Shown in pieces: positions 11,956 to 30,622 of a stretch of DNA of 64,000 nt. Below the pieces are notes generated by a model. That model was not told the DNA's origin. It worked only from the letters and a program-made list of their open reading frames with translations, and did no database searches. A program made the translations under genes and the position numbers. Position 1 is the stretch's first letter. Each line of letters opens with the position of its first letter. This DNA is from Methanosarcina barkeri 3 (GTDB taxonomy: Archaea; Halobacteriota; Methanosarcinia; Methanosarcinales; Methanosarcinaceae). The DNA lies in NCBI RefSeq assembly GCF_000970305.1, contig NZ_CP009517.1:2108001-2172000 (forward strand), written 5' to 3'.

Positions 11956-12180
11956 TAATTAACCTTGAAAAGAGTTCTGTTTTTAAGATAGATAATGAGT
12001 AAACTCACAAAAATAATATTTCAAAAATGCTCCGGACATTTAACCCGGTTTATAGTTAATATGGTATTTAAACTCTTTTGAACGGCATTCACACATAAGA
12101 AAATTTTTTATACTCTGCTAGACTAAGTTCATTATTTCCGGAATTCCGAATTTCCAGAATTTCGAAGTGGGATATAATTT
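11956..12180. other. Spacer between flippase and repeat array
   Basis: AT-rich promoter region for the minus-strand flippase. The remainder of the 560-base spacer is the 62 bp array listed next. Confidence 0.5.
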
Positions 12181-12488
12181 ACAGCTAACAAAAGTGGCAC
12201 AAAATTCATTGATCAACCTTTCTGTCTAAGAAAGGTTGGCTTACAGCTAACAAAAGTAGCACAAACTTCTTTGATCAACCTTTCTTTCTAAGAAAGGTTG
12301 GCTTACAGCTAACAAAAGTAGCACAAACTTCTTTGATCAACCTTTCTGTCTAAGAAAGGTTGGCTTACAACTAACAAAAGTGGCACAAACTTCTTTGATC
12401 AACCTTTCTGTCTAAGAAAGGTTGGCTTACAGCTAACAAAAGTAGCACAAAATTCTTTGATCAACCTTTCTTTCTAAGAAAGGTTGGG
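12181..12488. repeat. 5 x 62 bp tandem array with internal hairpins
   Basis: Five units begin at 12181, 12243, 12305, 12367 and 12429, each starting acagctaacaaaagt (one acaactaac). Units differ at only a few positions. Each holds aacctttct-(g/t)tcta-agaaaggtt, a perfect 9 bp stem. A diverged sixth copy continues into the start of the next gene (12527-12565: 'ttgatcaagctttctttttaag', then 'aaaagttgaagctaacaaa'; read as two blocks). No spacers, so it is not a CRISPR. Confidence 0.9.
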
Positions 12489-13106: not shown

Positions 13107-13859
13107 GTGAGGGATTTTGCTCGCGATGACCTTGCATGGGCCGATTTTCTAATATCAAAATCGGCACTTATTCTTGCAAGTGTTATCTTTTTTGCAGCAC
13201 TCTGTAATCTCATTGCTGGATTTAAGGAACTCGAAACCAGAGAAAAACTTGATTTTCTGGTTCTGGACTTTAAAACCGCAGTAGATGAAGTAGCTTCAGG
13301 CAGTTCAGGATCAAGAAGTTACGTATCAGGCACTTCAGAATCAGATAGTTATGTTTCAGATGACTCAGGACTAAGAGGTTTAGAATCAGACAATTATCAG
13401 GCCAGAGATCAACAGGGATTTCAGGGGGAACTCCAGAGTGGACGTATGGGTGCTCTGAATGAATCTCACGAGTCTTTCTATTGTTTCAGTGAACAGGAAA
13501 TTTTCAGGGATTTACCTTTTACGGAAGATATAAAGGTACGAGTTTCTGGAGAATATGTCTGTCTGGAAGCCGACTTAGGGGAACGTAATTTCAGAGCTGT
13601 AAAACCCTTTGCCTTCAGGGTTCTGCCTCTTAACGAATCTATCCTGCATGAAAAACTCAGTGCAGAATTTGGAGCCCCAGGTAACGAGGAAACTCCTCTT
13701 ACAGCCAATCATTCTGAAATTAAGGTTTTCCTTCAGGCATTGGGGACCGAAGAAGCAGTCCTGGACCCAAGTGAAAATATCTCATTAAAGAAAGAATTAA
13801 TTTATGTGAAAGATGAGGAGGGGATCTCTACTTTTGGATGCGTCCTTGTTTATCAGTAA
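13107..13859 (+). CDS. Unrecognised single-anchor envelope protein 2
   Basis: 250 residues, family not recognised. It begins at GTG behind CAGGAGA. A membrane anchor lies near residues 17-38 (ISKSALILASVIFFAALCNL). A Ser/Gly/Asp-rich low-complexity stretch (about residues 65-110, SGSRSYVSGTSESDSYVSDD) interrupts the chain and looks repeat-grown. A beta-rich C-terminal part follows. The gene lies 36 bases after protein 1 and its last codons and stop are part of an 18 bp tandem repeat that extends into protein 3. Same strand and same architecture suggest that the four genes make one envelope structure. Confidence 0.6.
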   Translation: MRDFARDDLAWADFLISKSALILASVIFFAALCNLIAGFKELETREKLDFLVLDFKTAVDEVASGSSGSRSYVSGTSESDSYVSDDSGLRGLESDNYQARDQQGFQGELQSGRMGALNESHESFYCFSEQEIFRDLPFTEDIKVRVSGEYVCLEADLGERNFRAVKPFAFRVLPLNESILHEKLSAEFGAPGNEETPLTANHSEIKVFLQALGTEEAVLDPSENISLKKELIYVKDEEGISTFGCVLVYQ

Positions 13860-13935
13860 TTCTTTGTTCATCAGTAATTCTTTGTTTATCAGTAATTCTT
13901 TGTTTATCAGTAATTCTATGTTTATTAGTAATCTA
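13846..13935. repeat. 5 x 18 bp repeat across a stop/start junction
   Basis: Units of 18 bp (ttgtttatcagtaattct) begin at 13846, 13864, 13882, 13900 and 13918. The first contains the stop codon of protein 2 (13857-13859). In the frame of protein 3 each unit reads LFISNS and begins with TTG, except the last, which begins with ATG. Each is therefore a possible start codon, and copy-number change keeps the frame. Confidence 0.85.
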
Positions 13936-14517
13936 CTCAAAGTTCTGCTTAAAAAGAGACTCACAGCCACAATTCGGCTCAAAGATGCCTTAAAATCCGT
14001 AAAGAAAACTTGTATGTTAATGTTCAGGGACGATCGCGGAGTACTTGAACCTCATACCGACCTACTCTCCGTAGCCCTTGCAGTGACAGGTTTTATGGTT
14101 TTCGCAGTCCTGATGTCACAAACTTATCTTGGATACGAAGACCGTTCTTTTGCTCTTGAAAATTACGAAACCGCATCTCTTCTTGCCGAAAACCTGGCAG
14201 ATGCTCTTGCTCTGGAAACGGAAAGTTCAGGCTTGATTTCGGCAGCTTCACTTGACACACTTTCGGGACCGGACGGAGTCAGTAAAAGAGCGAGGCTTTT
14301 TGCAGCTTACTCCGGGAATTATCGGTTCCTGGTTGAAGTCCGGACAGGAGACGATCAGTGGCAATGGAGAATCACACCGGACAACATCGATCCTGAAGCC
14401 TTTGCTGACGACCTGGAAAAAGTTGCAGCTTCCGTACCCGTTATAATAGAACTGAATCCTGCAGAATCTATCTCTGGTATGCTTACTGTCGTGATATATA
14501 AAACAGAATGGAACTGA
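13918..14517 (+). CDS. Unrecognised single-anchor envelope protein 3
   Basis: About 199 residues from ATG 13918; family not recognised. After a basic N-terminus comes FRDDRGVLEPHTDLLSVALA with a transmembrane segment (VALAVTGFMVFAVLMSQTYL), then a soluble domain with ENYETASLLAENLADALALE and a C-terminal IIELNPAESISGMLTVVIYK. The start is unclear. The frame is open back to 13813, GAGGAGGGG lies at 13814-13822 inside gene 2, and TTG 13834 plus the TTG codons of the 18 bp repeats could also serve. ATG 14014, just before FRDDRG, is another option. Either way it overlaps or abuts gene 2. Confidence 0.6.
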   Translation: MFISNLLKVLLKKRLTATIRLKDALKSVKKTCMLMFRDDRGVLEPHTDLLSVALAVTGFMVFAVLMSQTYLGYEDRSFALENYETASLLAENLADALALETESSGLISAASLDTLSGPDGVSKRARLFAAYSGNYRFLVEVRTGDDQWQWRITPDNIDPEAFADDLEKVAASVPVIIELNPAESISGMLTVVIYKTEWN

Positions 14518-16370: not shown

Positions 16371-16829
16371 ATGGCAAAAATGCATACTAAAAGAAAAGGC
16401 AAGTCCGCTTCATCCAGGCCCAACAGAACCGAATCGCCTGAGTGGTGCAAGATCAGCGCAGAAGAAGTTACTTCAATTACCCTTGACCTCTGGAAACAGG
16501 GTGTATCTACTTCTGAAATAGGAATGACCTTAAGGGACCGTTATGGGGTTCCTGATGCAAAGCTCATCACAGGCAAGAAGATCACAACTATTCTTAAGGA
16601 AAACAACGTTGCTATGAACGTTCCCGAAGACCTTACAAATCTGATTGTAAAGGCCCTGAGGCTCAGAAAGCACCTTTCTATTAACAAGAAAGATGTCCAC
16701 AACAAGCGTGCTCTTAACCTTACTGAATCCAAGATCAGAAGGCTTGTTAAATACTACAAGCAGGAAAAAGTACTCCCAAGAGACTGGTTCTACAAGCCTG
16801 AAACTGCAGAAATGATGATTACCAGGTAA
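16371..16829 (+). CDS. rpsO: 30S ribosomal protein S15 (archaeal S15p/S13e)
   Basis: Small-subunit ribosomal protein of 152 residues, the length of the archaeal/eukaryal form, with its N-terminal extension ([17 protein letters not shown]). The S15 core is at the C-terminal end: [20 protein letters not shown] then [20 protein letters not shown]. It binds 16S rRNA in the platform. ATG 16371 follows caggaga at a normal distance. It stands alone here, without other ribosomal genes. Confidence 0.96.
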
Positions 16830-28587: not shown

Positions 28588-28680
28588 ACGTTTTTCTCAG
28601 ATCTGTACGTTTTTCTTAGATCTTTTTCTATCTGTACGTTTTTCTCAGATCTGTACGTTTTTCTCATATCTTTTTCTTAA
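28588..28680. repeat. Tandem repeat of gtacgtttttctcagatct
   Basis: Four to five copies of a unit near 19-21 bp, sometimes separated by tttttcta. It runs up to and slightly into the 3' end of the surface-protein gene that is read from the other strand. Confidence 0.8.
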
Positions 28681-30622
28681 ATATGCCATATCCAACAAGA
28701 ATCATGAAGAGCGGTAAGGAAATTGCCATAAATATCCTGGCTGTTCCCATTGGATTCTTTATTTTACTATTTCCATTTCCTGCATTTCCATAAAGAGCTG
28801 CTTTTCCTTCGCTTCCAAGATTTCTCAGGGTTTCCTGTATTTTTCCTGCCCCACTAACTTTCATTATATTTTGCCCTGTGTATTCCGTTATTGCGAAGAA
28901 GGAATAGCCAGGAGTTTCCGATTTAAAGTAAATGTAATTTTCGTCTTCTCTAACTTTTTCCGTGTAAAGAGGCTGCCAATTGCTATCATACCTTTGCAGG
29001 ACTACCTGAGCCTTACTGATATTATTATCTTTGATCCATTCCTTTTCAACCTTGAACTCTACAAATCCGCTTTTAATAGAAGTAGGAAGCCCTGCTCCAC
29101 TATCTCCTACCCAGATATTCACATATTTATATACTGTACCTTCAGGAGAAGTCGGGACAAGAGTGGATCTGTTTTTAAGTTCTTCTACAACTGTTGTTGT
29201 TTTTCGGAATGTTTTCTTCGGATTAAATTCAATATTTACAATGCACGTGGCATTTTTTGTAAAATCGAACTGGATAGGATAATCACTCACGATACTCCTG
29301 GTTGAAAGTTCCTTAACAGCAATATTGGTTGCAGGCTCGCTGGAAACAAGATTCATACCTGAATCATCAGAAGAATTCGAATCCTCATTTCCAGTATCGG
29401 AACTGCTATTATCTGCACTTTCGGTATCCGAACTTGTGTTACCTGAACTTTTGGTGTCTGAACTTGTGTTATCTGAACTATGAGTATCAGAGTTTCCACT
29501 GTTCAAGCTTACGATATCCGAGCTTTTAGTGCCTGAGTTTCCAGTATCCGTACTTGTACCTGAACTTACGGTGTCTGAGTTTCCAGTATCCGATTTTTTG
29601 TTATCTGAACTTCCGCTGCCTGAGTCTGAATCTCCTTTACCAGAATCTCCGTCATCCGAATCAGTAGAGGAACTTTTATCATCCGGGTTAGTATCTGAAC
29701 TACCACCGTCTAAACCGGAGTCCGAATTCCCATCATCCGGATTAGTGCCTGAATTGCCATCGTCTAAACCGGAATCCGAATTCCCATTATCCGGGTTAGT
29801 GCCAGTGCCTGAGTTATCATCGCTCGAACCGGGATCTGTATTTTTATCATTTGAGCCGGAATCCGAACTACCATCATTTGAGCCGGAATCTGAGCTTCCG
29901 TCACTTGAGCCGGAATCCGAGTTTTTATCACTTGAGCCAGAATCCGAACTACCATCATTTGAGCCGGAATCTGAGCTTCCGTCACTTGAGCCGGAATCCG
30001 AGTTTTTATCACTTGAGCCAGAATCCGAACTGCCATCACTTGAGCCAGAATCCGAACTACCATCATTTGAGCCGGAGTCTGAGTTTTTATCATTTGAGCC
30101 GGAATCTGAGCTTCCGTCACTTGAGCCAGAATCTGAACTACCATCACTTGAACCAGAATCCGAACTACCATCATTTGAGCCGGAATCCGAGTTTTTATCA
30201 CTTGAGCCGGAATCCGAACTACCATCGTTTGAGCCTGAATCTAAGCTACCGTCACTTGAGCCGGAACCTGAATTTTTGTCATTTGAACCAGAGTCTGAAC
30301 TTCCGTCACTTGAGCCAGAATCCGAACTACCATCACTTGAGCCTGAATCCACTTTGTTTGTGTCTGAATCTTCAGTATTCGTGTCTAAATTTCCACTGTT
30401 TGAAACTGAATCTCTTGCATCTGAACTTCCGCTATCTGAGACTGAATCTCCTGTATCTGAACTCCCACTATCTGAGACTGAATCTCCTGTATCTGAACTT
30501 CCACTATCTGAGACTGAGCTTCCGTTATTTCCTAGAGCATGGACCATACCGGGAGCCATTCCAAGGATTACTAGCGTTATCAATAGTATATAAAATAATG
30601 AATTACAAAAACCGGCTTTCAT
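28664..30622 (-). CDS. Ser-Asp repeat surface protein
   Basis: Exported cell-surface protein of 652 residues. A signal peptide (1-30) is followed by about 390 residues of Ser/Asp/Gly/Asn repeats (units such as SGSSDGSSDSGSNDKNSD), an extended stalk like that of SD-repeat adhesins. The C-terminal folded domain (about 440-600) contains ELSTRSIVSDYPIQFDF, WIKDNNISKAQVVLQRY and SETPGYSFFAITEYTG, which resembles the archaeal PGF-pre-PGF domain. A C-terminal helix (ARIFMAISLPLFMILVGYGI) plus KKK anchors it. There is no PGF motif before this helix. The opposite strand of the repeat is also open by chance. Confidence 0.8.
   Translation of the reverse strand: MKAGFCNSLFYILLITLVILGMAPGMVHALGNNGSSVSDSGSSDTGDSVSDSGSSDTGDSVSDSGSSDARDSVSNSGNLDTNTEDSDTNKVDSGSSDGSSDSGSSDGSSDSGSNDKNSGSGSSDGSLDSGSNDGSSDSGSSDKNSDSGSNDGSSDSGSSDGSSDSGSSDGSSDSGSNDKNSDSGSNDGSSDSGSSDGSSDSGSSDKNSDSGSSDGSSDSGSNDGSSDSGSSDKNSDSGSSDGSSDSGSNDGSSDSGSNDKNTDPGSSDDNSGTGTNPDNGNSDSGLDDGNSGTNPDDGNSDSGLDGGSSDTNPDDKSSSTDSDDGDSGKGDSDSGSGSSDNKKSDTGNSDTVSSGTSTDTGNSGTKSSDIVSLNSGNSDTHSSDNTSSDTKSSGNTSSDTESADNSSSDTGNEDSNSSDDSGMNLVSSEPATNIAVKELSTRSIVSDYPIQFDFTKNATCIVNIEFNPKKTFRKTTTVVEELKNRSTLVPTSPEGTVYKYVNIWVGDSGAGLPTSIKSGFVEFKVEKEWIKDNNISKAQVVLQRYDSNWQPLYTEKVREDENYIYFKSETPGYSFFAITEYTGQNIMKVSGAGKIQETLRNLGSEGKAALYGNAGNGNSKIKNPMGTARIFMAISLPLFMILVGYGIFKKKI
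29815..30345. repeat. Repeat block encoding the Ser-Asp stalk
   Basis: In-frame DNA repeat of 30 and 60 bp periodicities (variants of 'tgagccggaatccgaactac' and 'catcacttgagccagaatcc' on the plus strand). Units are nearly identical, so expansion or contraction by recombination is likely. Confidence 0.85.

Follow-up and report, generated by a model that had tools for sequence, protein, structure and literature searches.

An 18-bp tandem repeat across a gene junction in Methanosarcina most likely lies downstream of a conserved TTG start and encodes part of a variable leader

What does a tandem repeat do when it begins over the stop codon of one gene and runs on into the front of the next? At such a junction in the 64-kb window (the whole stretch of DNA analysed here), the initial annotation saw a ladder of alternative start codons for the downstream gene, in which a change in unit number would lengthen or shorten the N-terminus or alter the coupling of the two genes. 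The question is thus where the downstream gene starts, and whether the number of units can matter to its expression. The features concerned are the following.

13107-13859, plus strand: gene 2, a 250-aa predicted membrane protein
13816-13825, plus strand: putative Shine-Dalgarno sequence of gene 3, AGGAGGGGAT, inside the gene 2 coding sequence
13834-13836, plus strand: putative gene 3 start codon TTG, overlapping gene 2 by 26 nt and lying 23 nt upstream of the gene 2 stop codon
13834-14517, plus strand: gene 3 (putative extent), a 227-aa predicted single-pass membrane protein, distant relative of haloarchaeal DUF7285 (PF23956)
13846-13935, plus strand: tandem array of five 18-bp units, within the N-terminal leader of gene 3
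13846-13863, 13864-13881, 13882-13899, 13900-13917 and 13918-13935, plus strand: repeat units 1 to 5
13857-13859, plus strand: gene 2 stop codon TAA, within repeat unit 1
13936-14025, plus strand: remainder of the variable, positively charged gene 3 leader, as defined by alignment
14026-14124, plus strand: start of the conserved gene 3 core, RDDRGVLEPHTD and then the hydrophobic segment LLSVALAVTGFMVFAVLMSQT

The array itself is real and much as first described. Five units span the gene 2 stop and the front of gene 3, and read in the gene 3 frame all five open with TTG or ATG. The span originally quoted began at 13814; it took in the strong sequence ahead of the units, a purine run (GAGGAGGGG) at 13815-13823, but the repeat proper begins only at 13846. 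The unit is TTG TTT ATC AGT AAT TCT, with variants TTC, ATT and ATG...CTA, and in the gene 3 frame the array encodes LFISNS four times followed by MFISNL. Tandem Repeats Finder gives it a score of 153 (18 bp x 4.8, 94% matches), while the highest-scoring array among 30 Markov-shuffled versions of the window reached 61; thus, the array is not due to chance. Within its own genome the unit is unique to this junction: a search allowing up to two mismatches matched four of the five units and, elsewhere, a single chance site with two mismatches. A dispersed or mobile element was considered and rejected, since the unit occurs in its own genome only at the junction and in the genus only in two sister species, apart from a look-alike in genome G027. 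That look-alike (L061:1312-1395) is an unrelated 18-bp array of similar unit, TTTATCAGAGATTCTATG, lying just 5' of the likely start of a dihydrolipoamide-dehydrogenase-like gene.

Tandem arrays are common in the window, where 36 non-overlapping ones, a frequency that had been overlooked, suggest a high general rate. Periods divisible by three are found in 7 of the 8 arrays inside open reading frames vs 9 of the 28 outside them, and the single exception within an open reading frame extends over the first codons of gene 4, which are doubtful. A minus-strand open reading frame of about 650 codons (28664-30622) consists mostly of tandem repeats with periods of 27/108, 30, 36, 42 and 54 bp, every one divisible by three. 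Gene 2 contains a second in-frame array (13296-13359, 30 bp x 2.1) in a stretch that also varies in length among species. Directly upstream of gene 1 lie five 62-bp repeats (12179-12487), each with a perfect hairpin, AACCTTTCTxTCTAAGAAAGGTT, which a search of the genome found nowhere else; a sixth, degenerate copy seems to encode the proposed N-terminus of gene 1, MDLVDQAFFLRKVEAN.

Of 31 Methanosarcina genomes, 24 yielded a gene 3 ortholog, and 23 of these could be read across the junction; one genome per species was used, and repeat variation is thus seen between species. Just one in-frame codon, TTG 13834, is a start in every one of the 23; it went unremarked in the initial annotation and sits between the purine run and unit 1, upstream of the entire array. 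Other in-frame positions hold a start codon in fewer species (13846 in 16, 13840 in 11, 13816 in 10 and 13813 in 9). The Shine-Dalgarno sequence before TTG 13834 pairs with the 3' end of the 16S rRNA of the same genome (AUCACCUCCU; CACCUCCU) at -11.5 kcal/mol with a spacer of 8 nt, and its equivalents in all 23 species pair at -9.6 to -11.5 kcal/mol with spacings of 6-11 nt. By comparison, pairing is -3.1 kcal/mol before TTG 13846, absent before the unit starts at 13864-13918, and -0.3 kcal/mol before the ATG codons at 14014 and 14020.

Since the same DNA encodes the conserved C-terminus of gene 2 (DEEGxSAFGCVLVYQ*) and carries the putative ribosome-binding site and start of gene 3, part of this conservation could follow from the gene 2 protein itself. 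Several details are not obviously explained by that protein alone. The gene 2 Phe codon over TTG 13834, where TTC would destroy the gene 3 start, is TTT in 22 of 22 cases (elsewhere in gene 2, 64% TTT and 36% TTC), and the Glu codon within the Shine-Dalgarno sequence is GAG in 19 of 19 (elsewhere GAA is twice as common), both being counts that ignore shared ancestry. The residue after the Phe varies among G, E, V and A while the first base of its codon is always G, and the Shine-Dalgarno sequence keeps its position even though the gene 2 residues that it encodes differ between species. An overall test of synonymous sites in the overlap is only weakly positive, constraint being moderately raised (mean difference 0.31 vs 0.40, with 14 of 166 other windows as low). 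It counts against this codon that TTG is a weak start and that a 26-nt overlap is unusual; in M. mazei, about 20% of the small open reading frames newly found are reported to start with TTG (PMC11456600). Taken together, the comparisons point to TTG 13834 as most likely the start of gene 3.

The length of the leader gives a second line of evidence. Across the 23 species the distance from the gene 2 stop to the gene 3 core ranges from 40 to 211 nt and takes 16 distinct values, all of them 1 mod 3. At least 14 length changes are needed on a tree of 21 species, and the chance that 14 random changes would all keep the frame is about (1/3)^14 = 2e-7; in the control gap between gene 3 and gene 4 of the same genomes, all three residues mod 3 occur. 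Given this strict rule, translation very probably covers the whole leader with its array, and hence begins upstream of it. Unit number differs among three sisters whose flanks are 95-97% identical (five here, eight in M. spelaei and four in UBA11020), so the claim that a change in unit number alters the N-terminal length without breaking the frame holds between species. The array of the M. barkeri-like group amounts to roughly two degenerate units, the second opening with TTA or CTG; the frame is also kept in several species that have only one unit or lack the repeat, and in those without an array the leader is about 25 aa. Unrelated arrays occupy the same leader in other species, with periods of 24 bp (L013 and L016), 9/27 bp (L011) and 12 bp (L023), and the 24-bp array likewise takes in the region of the gene 2 stop codon.

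We therefore favor, with good though not complete confidence, a gene 3 that starts at TTG 13834 and has the repeats downstream of its start, as a coding (LFISNS)n leader that is weakly constrained and turns over in frame. Initiation would occur inside the end of gene 2, by means of a Shine-Dalgarno sequence that belongs to the gene 2 coding sequence, and the five repeats would encode a repetitive stretch of a cytoplasm-side leader ahead of the membrane-spanning segment. Most likely, the 18 bp around the gene 2 stop were copied to their 3' side by replication slippage or unequal exchange. Because such copies would be placed downstream of both the gene 2 stop and the gene 3 start, each would leave the gene 2 protein, the Shine-Dalgarno sequence and gene 3 initiation untouched and would add six residues (LFISNS) to the leader. 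Units of any sequence could then be gained or lost with only multiples of three surviving, as might be expected if leader length is weakly constrained; we infer from its variability that the leader is nearly neutral and its length of little functional weight. Copy number should also not affect the coupling of the two genes, since both the predicted start and its ribosome-binding site precede the array, and to that extent the proposed effect of unit number on coupling is not borne out.

One alternative gives leader length more weight, as a selected, reversible tuner in which slippage within populations affects how the membrane protein is inserted or assembled. The rapid turnover of units between sisters and the recurrence of independent arrays in the same leader would fit such tuning, but some species lack an array altogether, the repeat sequences are unrelated between species, the window's many arrays suggest that turnover may simply be frequent, and every change is in frame and so has no known on/off outcome; we regard this tuning as unlikely. 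A bolder form of the idea seems to us slightly less probable again, namely that the junction is a built-in expansion site at which copying of the stop region grows and trims the leader (from about 25 to 82 residues), that leader length in turn tunes how a pilin-like protein is inserted into the membrane or processed, and that unit number varies within populations.

The ladder of starts itself, in which ribosomes terminating gene 2 would start again at the TTG or ATG of a unit and unit number would tune coupling or N-terminal length, appears quite improbable. A start codon opens every unit here and in two sisters, and the gene 2 stop is no more than 11 nt away from TTG 13846 and from TTG 13864, a range in which archaeal re-initiation works (PMC10666635). 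However, re-initiation in Haloferax is near zero beyond about 22 nt, which puts units 3-5 out of reach (PMC10666635); 16S pairing before the unit codons is weak at the first and lacking at the rest; these codons are not conserved (13846 is no start in 7 of 23 species, and the second unit opens with TTA or CTG in the M. barkeri-like sisters); and the frame is kept even where there is one unit or none. Given a TTG upstream that is conserved in all 23 species, with a normally spaced Shine-Dalgarno sequence, the ladder most likely consists of Leu and Met codons that happen to read TTG and ATG.

A start ahead of the Shine-Dalgarno sequence, at ATG 13813 (GTG 13816 in relatives), fares a little worse. 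The longest open reading frame here opens with ATG 13813, but neither codon is conserved (L007, L011, L015 and L023 have neither), the sole pairing ahead of 13813 (-3.7 kcal/mol) leaves a spacer of 2 nt, and the conserved Shine-Dalgarno sequence would fall inside the gene, without purpose. Finally, a start at ATG 14014, named in the initial annotation as an alternative, or at ATG 14020, which would leave the array untranslated, can be all but dismissed: both are ATG here and 14020 is also ATG in several relatives, but they lack a Shine-Dalgarno sequence, ATG is missing there in many species (for example L012-L017), and the 1 mod 3 rule upstream would be left unexplained.

The proposal that the product belongs to the envelope is plausible, as gene 3 has one hydrophobic stretch. 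Gene 2 matched no Pfam family (weak chance matches only), and genes 1-4 matched no NCBIfam family. The DUF7285 profile matches 22 of 22 complete gene 3 orthologs (E up to 0.01, best 6.5e-7), although the protein of the window scores 23.7 bits, below the curated Pfam cut-off of 27. Both groups have the R-x-x-E-P plus hydrophobic layout and the overlap with gene 2, whereas the leader here is far longer and repetitive; we found no paper on DUF7285 in the literature searched. The leader is rich in Lys and Arg ahead of the hydrophobic segment and so would be expected to stay cytoplasmic. An RG-VLEP motif preceding that segment is only suggestive of a class III signal and a type IV pilin-like protein; should the gene 3 product be pilin-like, its leader could be cleaved off by a prepilin peptidase and the tolerance would then be explained, and we offer this as a lead only. 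An AlphaFold2 model built from four sequences was too poor for a fold search (pLDDT 36.6).

The wider family, DUF7285, also occurs in haloarchaea. Of 10 loci from other families that were checked, 6 (L032, L034, L037, L038, L042 and L044) have a plausible start for gene 3 at 17-20 nt upstream of the gene 2 stop. In all six the start falls within the last codons of the upstream gene, its frame relative to that gene matching the one in Methanosarcina, where the distance is 23 nt; a short leader comes next, ahead of R-x-x-E-P and the hydrophobic segment. The position of the start inside gene 2 thus looks ancestral, and the long leader looks like an addition made in Methanosarcina. That the window itself comes from a Methanosarcina genome is shown by its archaeal ribosomal protein S15 gene at 16371 and by its relatives, every one of which falls within one genus, the nearest named ones being Methanosarcina spelaei and Methanosarcina MAGs. 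Seven other Methanosarcina genomes, some of them incomplete, gave no gene 3 match, and in genome G024 (L024:1501-1740) a gene 3 relative is broken by stops and seems frame-shifted; some lineages may thus be able to do without gene 3.

The general phenomenon, tandem repeats that are coding and whose unit length is a multiple of three, is already known. Those of Borg elements lie inside archaeal open reading frames, have unit lengths divisible by three, evolve fast, arose independently, and often fall in membrane or extracellular proteins (PMC9879509). The present array shares their setting and a unit length divisible by three, but Borg repeats are extrachromosomal and nearly perfect, whereas this is one chromosomal Methanosarcina leader that begins over the stop of the upstream gene. 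Its neighborhood resembles the overlapping pairs coupled by termination-reinitiation (PMC6728339, PMC10666635) in being co-directional and in having the downstream Shine-Dalgarno sequence inside the upstream gene, but at 26 nt its overlap differs from the 4, 1 or 8 nt that are common. With the contingency loci of simple-repeat phase variation it has in common short tandem repeats at the front of a membrane-protein gene. There, however, a change in unit number shifts the frame or the promoter or ribosome-binding spacing, whereas an 18-bp unit keeps the frame, all lengths are 1 mod 3, and the Shine-Dalgarno sequence and putative start lie upstream; on/off switching is thus not expected, and on the tests available this is not a contingency locus. 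The array lies in an open reading frame and its length changes keep the frame, from which its translation is inferred, and we judge it to be an in-frame coding tandem repeat of the ordinary kind, though unusual in its location.

For the family as a whole, these comparisons would correct the gene start, which a longest-open-reading-frame rule places at ATG 13813 and other rules at a unit start or at 14014. For Methanosarcina, the junction would be a clean natural record of how the leader of an overlapping gene can tolerate growing in frame time and again, with the start signal within the upstream gene staying fixed.
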